DNA of 64,000 nucleotides. Origin: Nitzschia sp. pyKryTriq1 (lineage: Eukaryota; Bacillariophyta; Bacillariophyceae; Bacillariales; Bacillariaceae). This document shows, one piece after another, positions 2,935 through 15,027 of this stretch. The notes below the pieces were generated by a model, which was not told the origin of the DNA, did not search any database, and was given only the letters and a program-made list of their open reading frames with translations. Position 1 is the first letter of the stretch. Each line of letters opens with the position of its first letter. Made by a program: the position numbers and the translations under genes. The DNA lies in contig OY101117.1 in the NCBI GenBank assembly GCA_956465555.1, positions 992,001 through 1,056,000 on the forward strand. The letters are read 5' to 3'.

Positions 2935-5176
2935 TTACCCGGCGATCTTCCCGCTGAACTCCCACTCGGGCTCGACTGCCATTGCCCAGTTGAACTTGTC
3001 TCTCAGTGTCTTCGAGAATACTTTTTCGATGGGAACCTCGTTTCGTTTACACCATGCAACGGTGATACGCGGATCCATGTAGTTGATCTTGGAGGTTCCG
3101 AGCGACACCTCCTTGTTGTCATCCTTGTGCTTCAAGTCCATCTCTGCCTTGGCAATCTTGCTGTTCCAGTTTTGAATGCGCTTGATAACTTGGTCTTTCG
3201 TGGGAACCTTCTCCCAAAGGTGAGCTTGCTGGAACTTCTTGTCCGCAACTTCTCGCTTTCGTTCCTTAGCCTTCTCATCTGCGGCCGTGGCCTTGATCTT
3301 TTCATCGTTGGTCTTGGCTTTTTCTTTCAACTTTTTGGCCTTTTCGATCATCTTGGTAACTTCCTCTGCCATCGTTTTTTCGCTCTTCTTGAGAGGGATT
3401 TTGCTCGCCTTGTCGGCATTGAGGCACTTCAGAATGCCCTTCAGAGTCTTCTTTTGCTTCTTCAAAGTCTCAATTTTGCCTCCAAGATTTTCGAGCTGAG
3501 TTTCTTGTGCTTTGCTCACAGAGCGTTGGTGATTACACAGAATGGCAACTTCGCGATTGGCATTGTTGTATTCGACCACCTTTTCCCCAGCAGTGAGACG
3601 ATTCCAGCCCGCGGCAGCTTCCGTCTTGTAAAGTTCTTCTTGCAAAGTTCTGGATGCGTTATAGGTACGAAATACCTTGGCAGAGAGACCATCCATGAAT
3701 TGCTTCAAATGATTGTTGAGCATCGTAGGGTTGATGGCGTCGAAGACTTCTTCGCTGTTCTTCTTCTTGCTGCAGAACTTCCTCAAGTTTTCAAAGACCT
3801 GAGAACCCATACCATTGTCAGCATTATACATGGCTGCTCCGAAGTCGATGGTTTGCTTGTAAAGCATGGAATCCTTACCCAGGAATTCCAATTCAATTTC
3901 CTTGCTGTCCCCTCCTTCCTTGTTTGGATCAAAGTGCAAATGCTCGACTCGAAGGGAGCAGCAACCCACGGTGTCGGCCTCTTCGTCGGTATCTTTCTCT
4001 CCGCCCACACGAAGGGCTAGTCGATCAATAACCCATACAGCCGTCGCCAGTTGCCTCGTCTCCTTATCCTTTGACTTGAGGTCCTTCTTGTACGATTTTC
4101 GGATATGGACAATCTTGTCACAGAGCTTGGCGGCCTTACTGTACTTGGATCGGTCCGACTTTCCCTTGAATGAGGACTGCGCGGCTAGTTGCATGTATTT
4201 GGATTGGTTATTGATATTTTCCTTCCAAGTGGCTAGCCATTGTCCTGTAGGATCGTGGCGCACATCGCCCCACGCATGCCCAGGAATGGGGCAGCGTGGA
4301 ATGGCCGAGCACTCGGAGAGATTGAGGGACACTTGCTCGGGAATAACACGCTGCTTGAGCTTTCCCATCTTTGGGTGCTCTCCGCGTCCTCTAAAGGCAC
4401 CAGGCGGTTCCATGTTGTAGTTACCAACCTTCTCCAAGTGACCATCTACAATGGCAAAGCCGTACTTGAACATGGCTTGATTGCGGTCTTCCTTGTTGGC
4501 CTTGCGTTCGTCGTCTGTAATAGCTTTTCGAATGATCTTTTGCTCGTTCAAGTGGTCTCTGATCGGCCCGAAGTCGCACTTGGAAAATTCTTTGATGACG
4601 TGCTTCTTTCCGAGCTCCTGCTTAAAGTCCGCAAAGAAATTCTTGATGAAAATCTTGCCCGTCTTTGGATTCCCCAAGTGCATACCGTCCGGGTCCATGG
4701 CGGCAAAGAAAGTGGCACTGCGTGAAGAAACAGCAACAGGCTACCAGTGAGTCCAAGGAATGTACTTCAAGCTGGTCGTTTCGTCCAACCAATGATGCCA
4801 TATATACTTACGCTTCTTCTTGTGCTGGAGTCAAGTCCACAGGCTGCCCGTCATACTTCATTTTGATACCGTGAGGCACGTAGGCCTCGGGGAAACTCAC
4901 ACCCGCGTGTTCCATAGTCAACCATTGACATCCCTCAGGAGGCTCCTTGGCATTCCACCACAAAAAGGCTTGCATAGCATACTGCAAACGCTCTGCCCTG
5001 TCTAGCTTTTTCAATCCTTTCGTCTTGGCCTTTTTAGCAGGCGACGACGATGACGTGGGAGCCGCATCGGGCTCTTCTCGCTTACGCTTTTTGGCAGCCT
5101 TGCCATCAGGGTCGGCCTTGATTTTGATCTTTTTCGCCTTTTTCTTCACGATTGGTTCATCGTCAGAAGAGTCCAT
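2935..5176 (-). CDS. TOP1: DNA topoisomerase I (type IB)
   Basis: Two exons, complement(join(2935..4717,4812..5176)), with a 94-bp intron, encode 715 residues. Order: a Lys/Asp-rich nuclear N-terminus, the core region starting at [14 protein letters not shown], the catalytic core ([38 protein letters not shown]), a Lys-rich coiled-coil linker of about 120 residues, and the C-terminal [17 protein letters not shown] with the active-site tyrosine near residue 668. The enzyme relaxes supercoils in the nucleus by forming a 3'-phosphotyrosine link, ahead of forks and polymerases. The linker and C-terminal domain are both present, so the enzyme looks complete. The start is 256 bp from the end of the transposon at 5433, so the element sits within or just beyond the TOP1 promoter. 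Confidence 0.95.
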
Positions 5177-5432
5177 GGTGATGAGGTCGGTTGGGAAGAA
5201 TGAAATGTGAGTAGAAAAAGGGCGAGCAGTAACGTCGGCACAACTACTATGATTGCGAAGATGTGCGTGTATCCGTTTGGTGTGAGAACCGAAGGCAGCT
5301 TGCTACTGGGTCTCCAGCAGAGAGCTGCAGGGAAGACGATGCTCCGACTTTGAACTTGCGTTCCTGGACTTTCCGTTCACGTAGAATCTACGGATTTTCA
5401 GTACCAGGTACTGTTGGATAGGGCGGTCTCTG

Positions 5433-5455
5433 CACGCCAAAATATTCTTTCTGCA
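5433..5455 (+). repeat. Left terminal inverted repeat of the transposon
   Basis: 23 bp starting CACGCCAAAA and ending TTCTTTCTGCA. It matches the reverse complement of 13629-13651 at 21 of 23 positions (differences at positions 10 and 13). TG precedes it. Confidence 0.8.
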
Positions 5456-5700
5456 CTTCAACCCCCAATTGCAGGAAATTCATGTATTGCAGAATCAAAT
5501 GCAGCCATCGCTTTCTGCAATGCGTTCTCCACTTCGATCTGCGCAAACGCGCTAAACCACGTCACTTCCTGCAATCAGCGCGCACATTCTGCAGTTGAGC
5601 TCCCGGGTTGCAGAAAATGCAACTTTAATTGCAGAATACTCGTCCGGCTCGCTCCCCACGATGATTCTAATGCAGACTTTATTGCAGAAGATTTCTGCAA
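5451..5700. repeat. Left subterminal TTGCAG/CTGCAA array
   Basis: At least twelve TGCAG or CTGCA cores in both orientations, at about 5451, 5470, 5488, 5500, 5515, 5569, 5588, 5608, 5629, 5671, 5682 and 5695. Several extend to ATTGCAGAA or TTTCTGCAA. Two more, nearly back to back, lie at about 6784-6800. Such arrays bind the accessory or transposase protein in En/Spm elements. Confidence 0.75.
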
Positions 5701-6012
5701 TCCGTCCGCGCACACCCTCATCCCCTCTTTCTCCGCAATATACCCCACAATAAATCACAGTTACTCGTTTCCCCCCAAAGTTACCAGCGTAGAGTCGTTT
5801 CAGTCGGAAACCGTGTTTTACTAGTCCACCCAGTCGAACGAACACGCCCGGCGTGTAAACATTCGAGCGAGCCTGCACACATGCAAAACCAATAATCAAA
5901 ATAAAAACAAAACATTTCGACAATGATATTCCTTCTAATACATCGATGCGGTCACTATCTACTCGCTAATCTGCTCACGACACAATCTATGAAGCATATC
6001 TGTTCTTTCTTT

Positions 6013-6152
6013 CTCTCATCGATCGCTCTCGCACTCATCCTCATCGATCTTTCCAGCAGCTCCCAAAGAGACGACTCCTGGCACCGAGTCTCGCTCGTCC
6101 TCCTTGGACTCAGTCAATTCACAAGTAGCAGCGGCTCACAATAAAGTACCAG
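6013..6152 (+). repeat. Displaced copy of the accessory gene's intron 3' end and exon 2 start
   Basis: About 6013-6060 repeats about 8563-8607 (end of the intron, through CTTTCCAGCAG). About 6115-6152 repeats 8608-8646 (start of exon 2) with few changes. The copy at 6013 has about 54 extra bp between the two parts, ending in CAG. This is an internal duplication inside the transposon. Confidence 0.75.
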
Positions 6153-6206
6153 GGACGCTGGAAGCGTGCCAAGACGAGCATCAAGATCGAGTAGATCACG
6201 AAGTCG

Positions 6207-6619
6207 CGCACGCTGACCGGATTGAGACCGAATTCCACAGGAAAAGATGAAATAGAGGGATCCGCATGAAGAGCGGCAAAGGCAGCTTGAGCCGAGGCGA
6301 AAGAGAAAACTCGTCAGCGACCAACATACAACCATCATCGTCGCCCTCCTATGATCAATTATCACACAGCTTTTATTACCTCGCGTCCTCTTTGCCTCGT
6401 CCCTCCCGCACGCTGACCGGATTGAGACCGAATTCCACAGGAAAAGATGAAATAGAGGGATCCGCATGAAGAGCGGCAAAGGCAGCTTGAGCCGAGGCGA
6501 AAGAGAAAACTCGTCAGCGACCAACATACAACCATCATCGTCGCCCTCCTATGATCAATTATCACACAGCTTTTATTACCTCGCGTCCTCTTTGCCTCGT
6601 CCCTCCCGCACGCTGACCG
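6207..6619 (+). repeat. 200-bp tandem duplication inside the transposon
   Basis: Units 6207-6406 and 6407-6606 look identical throughout, with a 13-bp start of a third (6607-6619). The period is exactly 200 bp. The identity points to a very recent duplication. Short overlapping ORFs in it have no family features and repeat with the unit, so I do not call them genes. Confidence 0.85.
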
Positions 6620-7043
6620 CATCAACATTATTTTATTATAATGCGTGCGTGTTGTTATTTTGTGTACGAAAATCGCAGAGATCTTATTTTATTGCCACCG
6701 CATGATGAAACACATATCCCGGAAAATCCCAACTATTATTTGTATTTTACGGCGCGTAATCACATGTAACTCGAATCCCCCATTGCAGGAATGTTCTGCA
6801 ATCGGTGAGGTTTCATGCAACGGCCCATACCATTATATCCGTCCTCGGTTAAAACACATTCACCGAGCACGATATTCAATCGTGTGCTCACAAATTTCCA
6901 CGTTCCGTTGCCAATTTGCGATCACAATTTTATCGTCCAACGGCGCAGCACTCCAATTTCATTCCATCGTGAACCCGTACACACGTACGCTACAGCGCCT
7001 TTGTATGGAAATTGTTTTGACTATAGTCACATTAATTTGTACC

Positions 7044-9596
7044 ATGTCGGATAATCCTCCAATCCATGGTGGCGATCGTAATGGTCCCCCGGCCCACTTT
7101 TATCCACAACTGAGCCAAGCACCACCGACATTATTTGGAACCATGTCAGATGATCTTTCAATCTATGGTGGCGATCGTAATGGTCCCCCGGCCCAACTTA
7201 TTTATCAACAACCGAGCCAAGCTCCACCGACATTTGGCATCCCAGGAATCCAACAGGCTGCAACCGGCGGTCATATCATGCCAACAAACAACCATGGTGG
7301 GATCTATTATCATCAGCACCCACCTAATAATCCAGCAGCAGTCTACCAGCATTTTGCTTATCCTCATTCTTCTGCGTTGCAACACCCGCTCATCCGAAAC
7401 CCTCCCCCGGAACTTCCAAATATTAATCCGCCCGTCGCGAACGATCCTTCCCTTTTCCCTGACACCGCCAAGGCAGATCTTGTTTGTGCCCGATACGGGC
7501 TTCCCCGCGACCCAACCACCCAACGGGTCTTGATCCCTTATAATCTTTTCGATTCCCGCCAAAGTCCCAAAAAAGGAACGAATTCCTTGGAACAGAGCAT
7601 CGCTAAGATCCCCGCATCGAACTACCAACAGCCTTTTGGTAGTAACGATGCTCTTGCAGACTTCCAGAGCCTTCGGGATCAGATCAAGGACCACATCATG
7701 GACCACATAAAATCCTCTATGGTCTCCCGTTGGAATACGCTCAACCAAACCGTCATCGGTGTGTTCGGCCGTCACGCTGTCCCAACGGAAAAGTATCCTC
7801 CCTCCATCAACGGTCGTACAAAAAACAATTTCAAGGATCTCAAGTCGGAAATGCGAATTCTAAACAGAAAGCTACGACCTGATGACAACAAAGCCACACT
7901 TTCTGACGAAGTGTCTACTTTTATCATCCGCTTTGTTCTTCATGTTGCATTTTCTTCCTCGTATACGAAAGAAGAAATAGAAACCTTCGAAGAAGCCCTC
8001 AAAACCCGTCTTGGGTTTGACGATTGTGGCAACTCCATTGACAAAGGAACTAAAATGCCTGCCAATGAGGACCCTTTCTTCCGAAAATTCTTCAACCAGA
8101 TCCACACCCAGATGCGAGGGGAGTTTGCGCTGAGTAAAGGTCTTGGACTCAGCACGGCTGGCGATGACCATGTTCAACCGACTAAGCCGACGAAGAAATT
8201 TAAGAGGGAGCAACGCCAACAGGAAGGCGAAAAATACAACTACGAGTTTCCGGGAAGGACCGCGTTGGGCGTTTTCAAAGTCCAGAATCTGAAGTATCGA
8301 AATGAGCCGGCCGACGAAGAAGCAAACTTCCACTTGGCGATCCAACATTTCATTTCTTACACCACCACCACGCAAACTCACGACGATTCCCCCGAAGGTA
8401 TGTTACTACATGAATTCCCGATTCCTATCGAATTGACGTGGTCATATTTTAGTCCAGCACACTGCGTGCGACAATGTTGAAGTTGCACACTGTGTGCGGA
8501 CAATGTTGAAGTTGCAGATTAGTAGCGGTCGGGTCATTATCAATTATTTTGTCGTCGCGTCTCTCATCGATCGCTCTCGCACTCATCCTCATCGATCTTT
8601 CCAGCAGTCAATTCACAAGTAGTAGCGGCTCACAATAAAGTACCAGATGCTGCTTCACCGAACATTCCTGGCGTCTCTAACCAAGGCGGGTCGGTTGCCC
8701 CATCTGTTTCAGTCATTCCACCAGTACTAGCGGCTCCCAATAAAGAGACTCCGCCTCACATTTCCGGCGTACCAGATGCTGCTCCAACGAACATTGTTGA
8801 TTCCGAACAGCCAGCTGTAGCTCCTGTTGATTCCGAACAGCCAGCTGTAGCTCCTGTTGATTCCGAACAGCCAGCTGTAGCTCCTCTCGCTTCTGTTGAT
8901 TCCGAACAGCCAGCTGTAGCTCCTCTCGCTTCCGAACAGCCAGCTGTAGCTCATGTCGAACAGCCAGCTGTAGCTCCTGTTGATTCCGAACAGCCAGCTG
9001 TAGCTCCTCTCGCTTCCGAACAGCAAGCTGTAGCTCCTGTTGATTCCGAACAACCAGCTCACAAGATGAAACTTCTGAAGGATGCGATCGATAAACGCAC
9101 CAAGAAGGATGAAGCCAAGAAAGCCAAGAAACGGCAAGCAGACGATGCGGCGGCGAATAAGCGAGCAAAGGGCAACGATGCTACCAAGCGCAAAACAGAC
9201 GATGCGGCGGCGAAGAAGCCAGAAAAGGGCAAAACAGACGATGCGGCGGCGAAGAAGCCAGAAAAGGGCAAAACAGACGATGCGGCGGCGAAGAAGCGAG
9301 CCAAGGTCAACGATCCAAAGCGATCAAGTGGAAGAAACCGTACTCCCAAGAAGATTTATGGGAGTGCGGATCTTCCCCCATGTGACGACGGGGGATCTCA
9401 CGAGATCCCCGGGGGTCTCGTCGTTGAAATTTGTGTTCCCCAGCCAGAGGAGTGGAAAGAATACATCTCTGACTCTATCTTCAAGATATGTAGCTTGTGC
9501 TCGAAGGAGCAAAGCCCGACCAAGTCGGCCCCGTACTACTACTGCAAGGCCTGCTTCATGGTAAAAGTCTGTGCCGCCTGCTATCAAGGCAAGTAA
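7044..9596 (+). CDS. Transposon accessory protein with repeats and a C-terminal CxxC cluster
   Basis: Two exons, 7044-8397 and 8608-9596, joined in frame over a 210-bp intron (GTATGT donor, CTTTCCAGCAG acceptor), give about 780 residues. The frame is open from 6645, but subterminal motifs reach about 6820, so ATG 7044 is preferred. The N-terminus holds a 99-bp tandem repeat coding MSDxxxIxGGDRNGPPA, in a Pro/Gln-rich region. A helical middle domain follows. Exon 2 has eight copies of a S-E-Q-P-A-V-A-P type repeat, then three Lys/Ala-rich repeats around KTDDAAAKK. The C-terminus has three CxxC pairs (CSLC, CKAC, CAAC), likely a zinc-binding fold. This could be the DNA-binding partner that reads the subterminal repeats, as TNPA does in En/Spm. 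That role is inference; I recognise no family. Confidence 0.6.
8794..9056 (+). repeat. Coding minisatellite, about 30-bp unit
   Basis: Eight copies of GAACAGCCAGCTGTAGCTCC-type sequence, coding S-E-Q-P-A-V-A with V-D or L-A spacers, then a ninth partial copy. Unit spacing varies between about 24 and 39 bp, always in multiples of three, so the reading frame is kept. Confidence 0.85.
9190..9300 (+). repeat. Coding minisatellite, 39-bp unit
   Basis: Three close copies of a unit coding K-T-D-D-A-A-A-K-K-P-E-K-G, preceded at about 9138 by a diverged copy. The tract is strongly basic. Confidence 0.8.
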
Positions 9597-9718
9597 TAGT
9601 GTACGGCAAATGGCAAGTAGTCTATGGCAAATCATATATGGTGGCCGATTATTATTTTAGTCTACGGCAAATATATGGCCGATTATAATACAATGACTTT
9701 TAGTACTCTCGTCGGTAG

Positions 9719-12700
9719 CTATACTGTGTCATTATTATACACAATCCCCGGGACCAACGGACGAGTAATCTTCCCGCCGGGGCCCATTTCATGCCAGTCC
9801 GAAGTGACTAGGAAGTAGAGAGAGGCTCCAGTTTCAAGTAAGCACGGTAGAAGTAGCGCAGAGTCTACCACGTCGTCCACGGAAAAAAAAGTGGGACTGT
9901 CTTCGTCGTCGTCTTCATCCGCGTGTGGCAGATGCCATCTGAAGTAGTGTGACCCGCTGTGACACTGGGTTACACTACTTGACATGGAAATTTCGACAAC
10001 TGAACTACCTTCACCTTTCAATGGCTTCAATGCTACACCGAATCGGTTGGAAGATAGCATAACAATGGAAATAGGCTCGTTGCCAACCGCGAAAGAGTCT
10101 TCCACTGCCTCAACGTCTTTGTACAAATAGAAGTCACGACGGGTTGTTTGTAGTCCACGTCTCAACAACTCTTCGCCGTCACCCTCTAAATCGAATTCGT
10201 CCTGCGTTTCAGAGAGAGACGGCAGTAAACCCATCAATTCCTTCGCGACTTCCACCATTCGGATGTCGCCAAGGCCCATTTGCTCGATTTTTTCGAGTAG
10301 ATTCACAGTACATCGATCCATAGTTCGTCTTTCCAGGTATCGGTCTGCCGTGTGATAGGCCCACCGTCCCTTCAAACTTTTGCAACAAATTTTGATCAGA
10401 GGTAACCCGGCCTCTCCCTTTCCGTCTCCTTCCCAGAGTGGTCGGTGAGAACCATACCGGCGAAGGCTGTCTGGAATCGAAAGCAGGGTAATGAAGTTGT
10501 ATTTGTCAATCCATTCGACAACCTTCGCTTGCTTCTTTGCCTTAGATGATTCTCCCGAGATGCGTACATACTTCTTGAGTAATCGGTCCAGACATGAAAG
10601 AAAATACTTGATGTGTCTGTCGCAGTCGAGTATTTGGTTTTCATTGATGACACCTCCGGGAACCATGATCCGACTGATCATGCTGGTCATAGCGCAAATC
10701 AAGTGCTCAATCTCCACAAGATCAGCATTCAGACGATCGGGGGGAATGATGGGTGGACAGTGTCCTCCATTGCTCTCCACGGCGTCTAAGCAATTCTTTT
10801 GCAGTTGTGGTTTCTTTGCATTTGAATCAAATGCTAGGCGACGATTGGTCAGCCAAGCCCGCAGTTCAGCAACTACCATCGATTCGATTGTTTTGCCAAC
10901 GGGATCGGAATATGGCACGTCGGCAACAGGAAGAGGGGATAACATCGAATAGACCCACTTGGCCACCTTGGCATATGCGAGGTAGTTCTCCGACACGTAT
11001 TTCCCGAACTTTCCGTCTTTCGAAAGTAATTCAACCTTTAACCACGTCAAATTGAATTTTTTCAACTTGAGCAAGATTGAGTTGGCGAATTCGACGAAAG
11101 AACTGTGTTTGGATTGGGAGGTGATAAAATCTTTCACGAATGTACCTAGGGTCGCTTTAACTATTCCGAGGAATAGCTGATGCATCAGCCCTGGGATCCA
11201 TTCTACAACATCAACGAAGGGGTAACTCCAATAGTGAGGCAGGAGGCTGTCCACGTAAACCCTGGCTTCTCCAACATTGTTGAAGGTTTTCGCTGCTTGA
11301 TACAGTAGGTCGACAAGGTCTTCTTGCAAGCCTTCCGTTTTTCCAAAGGCAAAGACCGCTTTCTTTGTTGTCCAGATGCCGGCTACTACGTTCGTGAATA
11401 TACTGTAACACGCTTCCCGTAGAGAGTTGAAGTCGATAGTCTTGAACTCCAAGTGTTCAGGACCATCAGGTGTAGATGGGTAGTCGGGAGGCATTGGATA
11501 TAAGATTCCGATGAGGACCCAGTCGTGGCACTCTTCACATGACTGGGCGGGAAGATCGTTCTTTCTCCGTTCGAAACAATAATCACACGAAGGAATCTGT
11601 ACGTAAACAGATACAAGGTCCCCCACAGTCCTAAAACAGGAGTGGTATGCAGAATTTCCACCCAGGACCCATAGCGCTCCAGCTTTCGCTGGGCGATCAG
11701 CCAAAATGCTGTAAATTATACCTCTGCATTTTGCAATACGCCTTTTCCAAGCTCCATGGTAGCAATCAATTCCTTGTTCGAGGAGCAAAAGATCATCAAG
11801 GATGAACTTGGAAACGGCGTCCTTGTCAGCCTGAGAGCCGTTGGCGCTCCCCAAAACTATGGGATACGTGTTCTGCGAAGTGTGGATTTTTTCGTCTGGT
11901 ACCCCTATAGTCAGTAGCTGCACAAATACTTTGTGTCGATTCCCCTTGACATAGGACGGATCCATGTCGTCCTCCCAGGGAATCAACGACGCAGCGAATG
12001 TATGAGGGTCGTCGTCAGATATCATCTTCACGTGGTTGATAATCTCTTTCCCACGAGGCGTTTCGGATAAAAGCTGCGTAGAGTCGAAGGGGACTACCAA
12101 GCCATGTGCCATGGCGTCCCGAAAGCAGTCAGAGGGCTTCATCGCAACGAAATCACCGAATTGATGAATGGGGATCTTGGGCAAATTGCGTGGGATGGAA
12201 TTTGAACCGTCCACGAAAGCACCAGCAAAACCGCCTTCTTGGGTTGGGAGAGAGAACTGACGATGATTGGAGATAACGGGGGGTGGATTGAGAGCAAAGT
12301 CAAGAAGAGCACTCAAAAGCCGGTGCTGGCTTTTGGGGATCTTGTGCAACAGTTGGCTAAACATTATCCCAAATAAGGCAGTGATCTCGTGAATGTTGAT
12401 GTTCGGCCCGTCGTGAAGCGCGTTGGAAACAACAGCGCAGCTTCCCATCCCACGTGATTTGTGTTCCCGTTCGAAGAATCGGATGCCACGGTTGTCGTTT
12501 TGATAAGGAAAAAGGTTGTCAAAGTCTATTCTTGTAGATGAGTCCATGTCTTGGCTCTCATCGTCATGAGTAGTAGGAAAGTGGGATTCGTCGTCTATAC
12601 TTGTAGATAAGTCCATGTCATCTGTCTGATTGGTGGTGGAGAGGATACGCTCATGTGTCGTATCAATTGTTGAATCTGCATTTGGTTCGCTCTGATCATC

Positions 12701-13102
12701 ATGAGGCCTGAGGACAGTATCTTGCAGGCGACTTAAATGGTGAGGAAAAGTACCGTGTTTGTTGATTTGATTTGGCTTTGTCATACATTTGCCTTTTGGC
12801 AGCAGGCCTATCTTGCAAACACGGCACCAATACCATTGCGAGTTGCACGACGGGCAGGATATTTTCACCGCCCAAGGGGTCTCAAGATCGTATATCAGGG
12901 CCTTAGTCGGTAGGGTATTACAGAAGGCGGATGTAGGAGTCGCCTTCTGTCTGCACCGAAGATCGCTGTTGTTCCTAGCGTCGAAATTTGCGAAATATTT
13001 CTGGCTGATCGGGATGGATACCGGTATGCCGACACTACTGCTACGATCGCCATCAACATAGTAGGCAGGTTCGGCGGGGTCCGATGAGGATGAGGACATC
13101 AT
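9719..13102 (-). CDS. Transposase-like protein of the CACTA-like element
   Basis: A single open frame of about 1127 codons from the ATG pair at 13099-13102; the frame extends up to 13225 but that part reads through a GA repeat. The N-terminus is Ser/Asp-rich, then a zinc ribbon CPSC-x6-CRVC in a basic setting. The central region has W-E-D-D-M-D followed by N-R-H-K-V, then LADRPAKAGALW, a second CDYC...CEEC pair, and WIPGLMHQLFLGIVKATLGT. This order (acidic D-D block, D-R-P block, Cys pairs, H-x-LFLG-V/I-K block) resembles CACTA and Plavaka transposases of the RNase H fold. I cannot assign all three catalytic acids. It converges on the accessory gene, 122 bp apart. No break is visible in the frame. 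Confidence 0.7.
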   Translation of the reverse strand: MMSSSSSDPAEPAYYVDGDRSSSVGIPVSIPISQKYFANFDARNNSDLRCRQKATPTSAFCNTLPTKALIYDLETPWAVKISCPSCNSQWYWCRVCKIGLLPKGKCMTKPNQINKHGTFPHHLSRLQDTVLRPHDDQSEPNADSTIDTTHERILSTTNQTDDMDLSTSIDDESHFPTTHDDESQDMDSSTRIDFDNLFPYQNDNRGIRFFEREHKSRGMGSCAVVSNALHDGPNINIHEITALFGIMFSQLLHKIPKSQHRLLSALLDFALNPPPVISNHRQFSLPTQEGGFAGAFVDGSNSIPRNLPKIPIHQFGDFVAMKPSDCFRDAMAHGLVVPFDSTQLLSETPRGKEIINHVKMISDDDPHTFAASLIPWEDDMDPSYVKGNRHKVFVQLLTIGVPDEKIHTSQNTYPIVLGSANGSQADKDAVSKFILDDLLLLEQGIDCYHGAWKRRIAKCRGIIYSILADRPAKAGALWVLGGNSAYHSCFRTVGDLVSVYVQIPSCDYCFERRKNDLPAQSCEECHDWVLIGILYPMPPDYPSTPDGPEHLEFKTIDFNSLREACYSIFTNVVAGIWTTKKAVFAFGKTEGLQEDLVDLLYQAAKTFNNVGEARVYVDSLLPHYWSYPFVDVVEWIPGLMHQLFLGIVKATLGTFVKDFITSQSKHSSFVEFANSILLKLKKFNLTWLKVELLSKDGKFGKYVSENYLAYAKVAKWVYSMLSPLPVADVPYSDPVGKTIESMVVAELRAWLTNRRLAFDSNAKKPQLQKNCLDAVESNGGHCPPIIPPDRLNADLVEIEHLICAMTSMISRIMVPGGVINENQILDCDRHIKYFLSCLDRLLKKYVRISGESSKAKKQAKVVEWIDKYNFITLLSIPDSLRRYGSHRPLWEGDGKGEAGLPLIKICCKSLKGRWAYHTADRYLERRTMDRCTVNLLEKIEQMGLGDIRMVEVAKELMGLLPSLSETQDEFDLEGDGEELLRRGLQTTRRDFYLYKDVEAVEDSFAVGNEPISIVMLSSNRFGVALKPLKGEGSSVVEISMSSSVTQCHSGSHYFRWHLPHADEDDDEDSPTFFSVDDVVDSALLLPCLLETGASLYFLVTSDWHEMGPGGKITRPLVPGIVYNNDTV

Positions 13103-13114
13103 CAAAATAGCTAT

Positions 13115-13138
13115 GAGAGAGAGAGAGAGAGAGAGAGA
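13115..13138 (+). repeat. (GA)n microsatellite
   Basis: Twelve GA units just upstream of the transposase start codons, on the 5' leader side of that gene. Confidence 0.9.
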
Positions 13139-13445
13139 AATTGTTGTTTGTCTGCAGGCGTATCCTTCCGCCCAACGGAAGAAGAACAACAATAAAACTG
13201 GTATCGCTCGTTTATAATAGTCCATCCCCCACCTCTGTGCGTATATTTATACATACCTTTGTTTCATGTATGAGCATACATAAAAATTTGACGGCCATAA
13301 CATATACAAGTAACCATCAGTCCAATTTGTAAGCACCGGTCCTTTTCTTACATAATCTGAAACCGACGATGATGATGAGATTATAAAATGGGGGAGGGTC
13401 GGTACGTCATCCGTTGAAGGAATATTGATTTCAGAAAATGTGAAG

Positions 13446-13633
13446 ATCTGCATTCAATCCTGCAATTGGTGGTGGATTGGGTGCCACGTGTAGGGGCGAT
13501 GTTTGATTCTGCAATATGGCCTGCAGTTCGTTAAAGTCAGATTTTTGTTGGAAACCCTCCACGAGAATTCTGCAATCAGGCCTGCAAAGAGGGGGAGAAT
13601 TCTGCAATTCTTCCTGGTATTGACAAATTGCAG
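13446..13633. repeat. Right subterminal TTGCAG/CTGCAA array
   Basis: Eight CTGCA or TGCAG cores at about 13447, 13460, 13509, 13520, 13568, 13579, 13602 and 13628, mostly in one orientation (TTCTGCAAT). They mirror the left array. Confidence 0.75.
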
Positions 13634-13651
13634 AAAGATTAATTTGGCGTG
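13629..13651 (-). repeat. Right terminal inverted repeat of the transposon
   Basis: The reverse complement begins CACGCCAAATTAAT and ends CTTTCTGCA, 21 of 23 matches to the left end. TG follows at 13652-13653. Confidence 0.8.
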
Positions 13652-13974
13652 TGTCGACGACGTGTTTTGCGTTGGATGGGCAAGCTCAAAGCGGCGTCGA
13701 CCGTCGACCAAGGACGACCGCGCGACTGTTGCGCGATCCTATCGGCATGCAAAACGTCACAAGAATACAACGTAAAATTTGCACTCCGCGGTCGGTCGGC
13801 GGCCACCAAAAAATCTTCTGCACTTTTATTATCATCCTCCTCCTTGTCTTTCTCCGCTGGCAATGAGACCCATCATCCATTCCATTGTCAGAAAATTCAA
13901 TGTGGGTAATCATCAAGCAGAGGAACTTGTACGATATTTATTGACGTGCTTATTTTTCATATGATACGGCAAGG
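13652..13974. other. Intergenic, transposon flank and methyltransferase promoter
   Basis: 323 bp with several short overlapping ORFs on both strands and none with family features. A C/T-rich stretch (about 13828-13858) lies upstream of the + strand gene. Nothing else is seen. Confidence 0.4.
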
Positions 13975-15027
13975 ATGAAGCGAATGTCTGTCCCTTTCCT
14001 ACTGCTTCTACCGATACGCAATTTCTGCCTGGTGGAAGCTCGACGACCATCATCACGGCTGGCGTTTTCCACTGCCCCGATTGCCGCCCGAAGAATTGCG
14101 TCGTATTCGTCTTCGCGTCCCCAATACTCTCGATGCTTCAGTGCGGTAGAGGCTGTTAATGACGACAATACTATATTATCATCCACTTCTACGCATATAG
14201 TGGACGGTATCGTTTGTCGCGAAATTCCTATTGAGCTTCCGGTGGTAGGTGTGGTCACTGTTCTGGAAGCGACCGCCGAGTCACAAGAATCCCTCGTGGA
14301 TATGGCCCTGGCTTTGGACGACGACGAACTGAGGGAAGGAGAGCAAAAATTATCAGCTGGGGACCCCTATGGTGCTGTACTTTGGCCGGCAGCTTGGGCA
14401 GTGGCCAGCTATTTGCTCACTTCTGAAGGAATTACGACCGATCGTTCCAAAAAAGAGGATTTAGTTTCGTCGTCGGCGTCAAAGAGGCCATTAACGGGGT
14501 TATCAATATTGGAGCTGGGAACTGGGACAGGATTAGTGTCCATAGCTGCCGCGTTGGGTGGAGCCAAGGTCCTTGCGACAGACTATGAGCCACTTGCCTT
14601 GACGTTGACCGAATACGCCGCGAAATCGTTCCATGGAGATGAGATTGTGCTACCAATTGAATTACAGCTCTTGGACATGTGCAATTTCGATACTCCTTTG
14701 CCACTGGTCGATCTAGTTGTGGCGGCAGACATCATGTACGAGCCGAAAACGGGAATTGCCATGGCTCATCGAGCGGTGGAGGCCTTGAAACAAGGCAGCC
14801 GTGTGCTCGTCGGTGATAGTCCCGGGCGACCGGGAAGACCGGCCTTTTTGAAAGCGTTGAAGGAGCTCGGGGTATCGGATGAAGCAATATTTCAAGACAC
14901 GATAGGTCGCACATGCTCTGGTCCCCGACACGAGCTGATTTGTGGGAAAGGCTCGACATCGGTGTCGGCGACGCCCAAGGAACTGCCAGTTGCGATCATG
15001 GATTTGAATCCGTCGATGCTTTCTTGA
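13975..15027 (+). CDS. Class I SAM methyltransferase, METTL21/FAM86-like (family 16)
   Basis: 350 codons, no intron needed. The N-terminus is hydrophobic then Arg/Ser-rich (MKRMSVPFLLLLPIRNF, then RRPSSRLAF), which suggests an organelle presequence. The methyltransferase fold shows motif I ILELGTGTGLVSIAAAL, the acidic ribose-binding motif ATDYEPLAL, and a D-x-x-Y motif (VVAADIMYEP) typical of the seven-beta-strand protein lysine methyltransferase group. An upstream block with G-A-V-L-W-P-A-A-W matches the usual 'LWPAA' segment of this family. The substrate is unknown. Members methylate lysines on chaperones, elongation factors and calmodulin. The start chosen is the first ATG after the transposon's right end, 324 bp away. 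It converges on the spartin-like gene. Confidence 0.75.
   Translation: MKRMSVPFLLLLPIRNFCLVEARRPSSRLAFSTAPIAARRIASYSSSRPQYSRCFSAVEAVNDDNTILSSTSTHIVDGIVCREIPIELPVVGVVTVLEATAESQESLVDMALALDDDELREGEQKLSAGDPYGAVLWPAAWAVASYLLTSEGITTDRSKKEDLVSSSASKRPLTGLSILELGTGTGLVSIAAALGGAKVLATDYEPLALTLTEYAAKSFHGDEIVLPIELQLLDMCNFDTPLPLVDLVVAADIMYEPKTGIAMAHRAVEALKQGSRVLVGDSPGRPGRPAFLKALKELGVSDEAIFQDTIGRTCSGPRHELICGKGSTSVSATPKELPVAIMDLNPSMLS

Follow-up and report, generated by a model that had tools for sequence, protein, structure and literature searches.

The window analyzed here, a 64,000-nucleotide stretch of the genome of the diatom Nitzschia sp. pyKryTriq1 (C3:992001-1056000, in an assembly of 40.65 Mb and 20 contigs), carries between positions 5433 and 13651 one apparently complete 8,219-bp DNA transposon with two genes. 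The ends of the element, the arrays that lie just inside them and its coding content suggest that it is probably a two-gene, cut-and-paste diatom transposon that works like the En/Spm (CACTA) elements, employing a transposase and a partner protein that acts on the arrays. Silicon transporter genes mark diatoms, and the diatom host named in an earlier reading of the bare sequence (the original prediction) is supported by the silicon-transporter profile PF03842, which matches the assembly 8 times, always over the cut-off, compared with one sub-cut-off match in 14 control genomes.

The original prediction described 23-bp inverted ends with 21 identities, flanked by TG and starting with CACGCC instead of CACTA, and was to be abandoned if no further copy had these ends or if further copies had different boundaries. 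A repeat search returns the end arms as an inverted pair of 26 nt with 88% complementarity, of which the outer 23 bp agree at 21 positions, and the inner part of the left arm includes TTCTGCA, which is part of the subterminal motif. The whole assembly was searched with a 23-base end pattern, in which up to 3 mismatches were allowed and two W positions were set after viewing both arms; this yielded 16 sites (14 with no mismatch, one with 1 and one with 3), and a control with the reversed pattern yielded none. Both differences between the left and right arms recur at every one of the 14 exact sites, of which 6 are left ends and 8 right ends; together these sites make up six complete elements and two lone right ends (C7c, at C7:2360953, and C11:768985). 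Other copies with the same ends are thus at hand, all six complete copies terminate in CACGCC...GGCGTG, and the claim of a whole transposon with its own second gene survived, its ends being exact to the base.

In addition, the two bases just beyond the left end equal those just beyond the right end in 6/6 complete copies (TG, TG, TC, TA, TA, TT), which confirms the suspected 2-bp target-site duplication. The two TA duplications belong to copies C7a and C7b, which count as one insertion because they do not differ, not even in the 500 bp that flank them to the left and to the right, so that five independent sites are represented; by simple arithmetic, a chance match of 2-bp flanks at five sites has a probability of about 1e-6. 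All five independent duplications start with T, and among the three lone right ends inspected, the next base is T for C7c and for a diverged end on C9, and C for C11.

The TTGCAG/CTGCAA arrays reported just inside both ends are also borne out, with a density far above background. Counted on either strand, TTGCAG has 8 occurrences within the leftmost 328 bp of the element and 6 within its final 251 bp, as opposed to 8 in the inner 7,640 bp and 42 in the remaining 55,781 bp of the window, and the best other non-overlapping 300-bp stretch (in 10-bp steps) holds 3 sites. All five other complete copies retain 394 bp or more from the left end of the element, and four of the five retain 296 bp or more from its right end, C16 keeping only 102 bp there.

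Table 1. Coordinates of the element, its copies, its relatives and its neighbors (positions without a contig name refer to the window)
Feature	Position	Strand	Remarks
Target-site duplication, left copy	5431..5432		TG
Left terminal inverted repeat, outer end	5433..5455	+	CACGCC...; same outer sequence in 6/6 complete copies
Left subterminal TTGCAG/CTGCAA array	5433..5760		8 sites, motif count
Tandem repeat	6207..6619		200-bp unit, 2.1 copies, 100% matches; left part of element
Accessory gene, exon 1	7044..8397	+	predicted start codon; frame open upstream to 6645
Accessory gene, putative intron	8398..8607	+	GTATGT...CAG; 8604 is an alternative acceptor, same frame
Accessory gene, exon 2	8608..9596	+	EQPAVAPVDS repeats, Lys-rich repeats, Cys-rich C-terminus (three CxxC pairs)
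Transposase frame	9719..13225	-	1,168 aa, open throughout; candidate D419, D510, E938
Right subterminal TTGCAG/CTGCAA array	13401..13651		6 sites, motif count
Right terminal inverted repeat	13629..13651	-	21/23 identical to left arm
Target-site duplication, right copy	13652..13653		TG
Topoisomerase I gene start	frame 4808-5176	-	PF02919, E 1.6e-10; left neighbor of element
Methyltransferase-like gene	frame 13975-15027	+	PF10294, E 1.2e-13; right neighbor of element
Window copy	5433-13651		complete, 8,219 bp
C17a			complete, internally deleted, 2,909 bp
C7a	C7:723455-725041		complete, internally deleted, 1,587 bp
C7b	C7:737059-738645		complete, internally deleted, 1,587 bp
C16			complete, internally deleted, 1,338 bp
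C17b			complete, internally deleted, 864 bp
L074-type transposase locus (query)	C14:507701-510934		
L074-type transposase locus	C3:2689912-2692953		
L074-type transposase locus	C6:446724-447650		

Relative to the window copy, all five other complete copies carry internal deletions (in a comparison that lists pieces longer than 40 bp), and a search of the genome with the transposase protein matched at least 10 places, the full frame being present only in the window and the other matches being 9 fragments. C17b and C7c, the latter a lone right end whose left counterpart is gone, agree in their deletion junction and in its 63-bp filler, which is identical, yet have different right flanks, so that this derivative apparently transposed once the deletion had formed; the shared junction supports the past movement of derivatives. 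C7a and C7b lie approximately 13.6 kb apart and represent either a recent segmental duplication or a duplication in the assembly. Three further candidates were rejected as copies: C10:652255 (3 mismatches), which has one end only and protein similarity of E 7.8 at best; C9:1801521, a single diverged right end (79.7% identity over 69 columns) with no tblastn match at E<=10 (loci L046, L069); and C10:1439139, a fragment of about 40 aa. The tblastn listing of loci leaves out five that belong to the window's own element (L001, L009, L029, L048, L049).

At least two sublineages of the element must have existed, since C11, C17b and C7c have a common transposase leader that differs from that of the window copy, and since the identities of the ends point in the same direction. 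C17a and the window copy do not differ at all over the last 300 bp, where the identity to the window copy is 97.3% for C17b and 98.0% for C7a, these two being 99.7% identical to each other; over the left 400 bp, the window copy is 98.2-98.7% identical to the four other copies compared, with gap columns uncounted. (C16, which keeps too little of the right end, was omitted from the right-end comparison, and C7b, which equals C7a, from both.) These data bear on the question of whether the window copy, which looks intact and could possibly still be active, might instead be an inactive relic that is open in appearance only, most of the deleted copies having been moved by another master that was lost or is unassembled. 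Such a history is conceivable though doubtful: the deviating leader and the mutual closeness of the C17b and C7a right ends speak for it, as do the failure of the transposase search of the genome to find a full copy of the C17b/C7c/C11 sublineage and the pieces of dispersed repeats within the window's own leader. On the other hand, the 1,168-aa frame runs without a stop, the exons of the accessory gene join in frame, and C17a shows no mismatch to the window copy over a right-end alignment of 672 columns (2 gap openings).

Of the two genes, both initially thought to be open over their full length, the transposase gene is so, whereas the plus-strand gene needs an intron. The probable start of the transposase is Met42 (13102), because similarity to C11 sets in only at about residue 37, upstream of which the leaders are different. 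The repeat pieces in this leader lie within approximately 13115-13354; its stretches 13240-13298 and 13318-13351 are found again elsewhere in the genome, and several genomic copies of the former adjoin a partner in inverted orientation, in the manner of a hairpin repeat. The N-terminus of the transposase includes a zinc-finger-like CxxC/CxxC region. The residues MH at 681-682, which we take to resemble a CACTA/Plavaka motif, were not used as a test.

The identification of relatives of the transposase within the same genome provides a basis for proposing catalytic residues. When the genome was searched with the transposase core, E values up to 10 being admitted, weak matches turned up within large frames at C3:2691016 and C14:509330 (both E 0.03) and at C12:1096127 (E 0.10), the rest being pieces of the window's element family and one 40-aa fragment. 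The three matches represent two families, one on C14 and C3 (L074 type) and one on C12 (L073 type), the latter with one full copy and fragments. Two-sequence BLASTP comparisons of the window transposase with the two relatives gave E values of 1e-6 and 1e-8, and both are 21-26% identical to it in alignments. The L074 protein of C14 (1,078 aa) matches C3 over residues 1-1014 and C6 over residues 1-309, both at a reported identity of 100%, suggesting a very recent spread of that family. Beside the genes, L074 (3236-3501) and L073 (3457-3601) hold the same near-perfect palindrome around CCCAACGTAGGGTAAATTTTGCA, the core of which is absent from the window.

In a three-way alignment (A1), the three transposases have in common W417-x-D419, D510-R511, C547, N910, L915, G925-S926-x-R928, W931 and E938, in addition to N-terminal Cys and His residues of zinc-finger-like appearance. 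D419 and D510 are common to both relatives in A1 and also in a trimmed alignment with shorter ends (A2), while E938 is so in A1 only. It is plausible that D419, D510 and E938 form a catalytic D/D/E triad, with spacings of 84-91 and 394-439 residues across the three proteins; this reading draws on three sequences and no usable structure. A C(2)C motif follows the second D in two of the three proteins, as C547-x2-C550 in the window transposase and CKYC in L074, the aligned place in L073 being CDCH. Beyond this genome, pattern matches to the transposase were obtained in some viral contigs, none of them passing tblastn, another viral-contig search yielded no pattern match, and no relatives were confirmed in prokaryote genomes and phages; these results say little about other diatoms, since none of the collections was built from eukaryotes.

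The accessory gene, which is encoded on the plus strand and converges on the transposase gene as originally described, is predicted to yield a spliced protein of 780 aa. Among 122 frame-keeping GT-AG pairs (donors at 8250-8481, acceptors up to 9065), the intron of Table 1 was preferred, as a matter of judgement, for its donor and its pyrimidine-rich acceptor. A near-identical block occurs twice in the element, at 6012-6152 and, without about 50 bp, at 8560-8646, where it spans the putative intron acceptor. A domain scan of the protein recovered no recognised domain; its C-terminus has what we take to be the look of a ZZ finger, which was not used as a test. The Cys-rich end finds matches of 43-45% identity at four other places, on C3, on C6, at C12:1216075 and at C1:381929. 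On C3, it belongs to an 899-aa frame with the orientation of the L074-type transposase, a longer match of 29% identity starting about 2.3 kb past the transposase match and the Cys-rich core lying about 2.6 kb past it, while on C6 it follows an L074-type transposase fragment after about 100 bp. The two-gene plan is therefore common to the sister family, and the convergent layout is not a trait of the lineage, as both genes lie on one strand on C3. It has to be considered that the plus-strand gene could be a captured host gene, a passenger without a role in transposition, which would agree with the lack of a recognised domain and with the occurrence of the C-terminus at C12:1216075 and C1:381929, where transposase searches gave no match (the surroundings being unread). 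Its position next to the sister transposase on both C3 and C6 fits an old component of the lineage instead, and makes the passenger explanation improbable.

If the element does work as a two-component system, the product of the minus-strand gene would be a DDE-type transposase, cleaving at CACGCC...GGCGTG and inserting the element where the target, mostly TN, is cut with a 2-bp stagger; DDE chemistry and the cut-and-paste mode are deduced, while the 2-bp duplications are observed. The accessory protein would bind the TTGCAG/CTGCAA arrays in both ends, by analogy with TNPA of maize En/Spm, and might help to bring the ends together or control expression. Internally deleted copies that retain both ends would have been moved, presumably by the proteins of intact copies.

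Plant CACTA elements in general make a 3-bp duplication. The comparison with known transposons that follows is limited to those parts of the cited publications that were available. Maize En/Spm has, like the diatom element, short inverted ends starting with CAC, subterminal arrays, a transposase with a partner, and deletion derivatives that retain the ends; the subterminal repeats of En/Spm are recognised by TNPA, which is required together with TNPD (PMC2613891). It differs in its CACTA termini, as opposed to CACGCC, and in its organization as one alternatively spliced unit instead of two separate convergent genes; the duplication, given as 3 bp for the soybean element (PMC2613891), is 2 bp here. 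Members of the CMCT clade carry C(2)C and H(3-4)H motifs between the second D and the last E, mostly have CA..TG termini and make duplications of 2-5 bp (PMC12730594). The H(3-4)H is common to EnSpm, Plavaka, Transib and RAG1. Fungal EnSpm families, compared by description only, have CAC..GTG termini as here but 3-bp duplications, while the fungal Plavaka A and B lineages share 2-bp (or 3-bp) duplications and the transposase C(2)C with the diatom element, and differ in their termini, TGT..ACA or CATCA..TGATG (PMC12730594), and in the H(3-4)H that the diatom element lacks. KDZ (Zisupton) elements make an 8-bp duplication (PMC12730594), as opposed to 2 bp. In the diatom Cyclotella cryptica, EnSpm is among 12 listed DNA-transposon superfamilies, with no termini, duplications or proteins given in the available part of the source (PMC7466962), and in the available part of an article on Leptocylindrus aporus (PMC7017206) the relevant terms occur only in the reference list. 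No published description of the diatom family was found among the titles and abstracts of the matches listed, the closest entry being that of EnSpm for Cyclotella cryptica; as Repbase lies outside this comparison, the family is not claimed to be unrecorded.

A number of observations weigh against the interpretation of the element as an En/Spm-like two-component system. No known transposase profile matches the transposase, neither in NCBIfam nor in Pfam, where the protein and its two relatives matched no transposase family at E<=10, a scan in which the HMMER filters discard most matches above E 0.1. A profile search against solved structures (PDB) likewise gave no match for the transposase. Two AlphaFold models, with mean predicted local distance difference test (pLDDT) scores of 37.0 and 38.5, are too poor to use, and a fold search with a structure model gave nothing better than E 0.1. 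The H(3-4)H motif, part of the zinc site in RAG1, is absent from residues 510-938 of the window transposase and from the same stretch of L073, an interval that depends on the candidate E; L074 has one such motif, at 749, away from its E at 926. E938 is itself the weakest of the three proposed residues, since it is not an invariant column in A2. In the accessory gene, start codon and intron are predicted, as is the binding of the arrays by its product, whose role is an analogy, and the whole right array may be dispensable, as C16 keeps so short a right end. Three leads were set aside: matches to electron-transfer flavoprotein structures in a sequence search of solved structures (E 0.71 and 0.78) are at chance level, a HeH/LEM match at residues 782-810 (E 9.1e-6, 25.7 bits) falls below its cut-off of 28.9 bits, and the RNase-H-like strand order in the low-confidence models, an impression only, was given no weight.

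Membership in a CMC subgroup, as first proposed, has accordingly not been established: the Pfam result, the absent H(3-4)H, ends that read CACGCC instead of CACTA and the quality of the models speak to this, and the element was not filed as a CMC member because H(3-4)H fails, even though termini, duplication and C(2)C fit and the D/D/E is plausible. The comparison with CACTA, Plavaka and KDZ suggested at the outset placed the element in none of them. Transposase_21 (tnp2), representing CACTA, has no match in the three transposases at E<=10, and its genome search is empty, as are the controls of that search; Plavaka (PF18759) has no match in the three transposases and one sub-cut-off match elsewhere in the genome (E 0.25); KDZ fails on the size of its duplication. 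The lack of a Pfam transposase match, the missing H(3-4)H and the two separate convergent genes would all be expected of a transposon, DDE or other, from a different superfamily unrelated to CMC, in which CAC...GTG ends and subterminal repeats arose by convergence. This is unlikely, as CA..TG termini, a 2-bp duplication, C(2)C in two of three proteins, a plausible D/D/E with a long insert, and the arrays fit the CMCT description (PMC12730594) and the En/Spm plan (PMC2613891). Rather than entirely new, the element looks like a distant cousin of the plant CACTA elements.

A broader, tentative proposal, which we regard as speculative, is that a deep diatom branch of CMC-like transposons exists, represented in a single genome by three or more divergent families that kept D/D/E and lost H(3-4)H, and at least two of them with a Cys-rich-ended partner, so that the two-component system would have evolved or been kept outside plants. 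If correct, this would add a well-bounded diatom lineage to the RAG1-related transposon group and indicate that the plan of transposase and binding partner is not confined to plants. Confirmation of the missing H(3-4)H by a structure would imply that part of the conserved motif set is dispensable. Should the En/Spm-like mode of action hold, a low-copy element with natural derivatives as small as 864 bp would also be a candidate genetic tool for diatoms.

The element occupies a short gap between two divergent host genes (5177-13974), the topoisomerase I gene and the methyltransferase-like gene of Table 1. The insertion splits what was a gap of approximately 0.6 kb, which may have been a shared promoter region.

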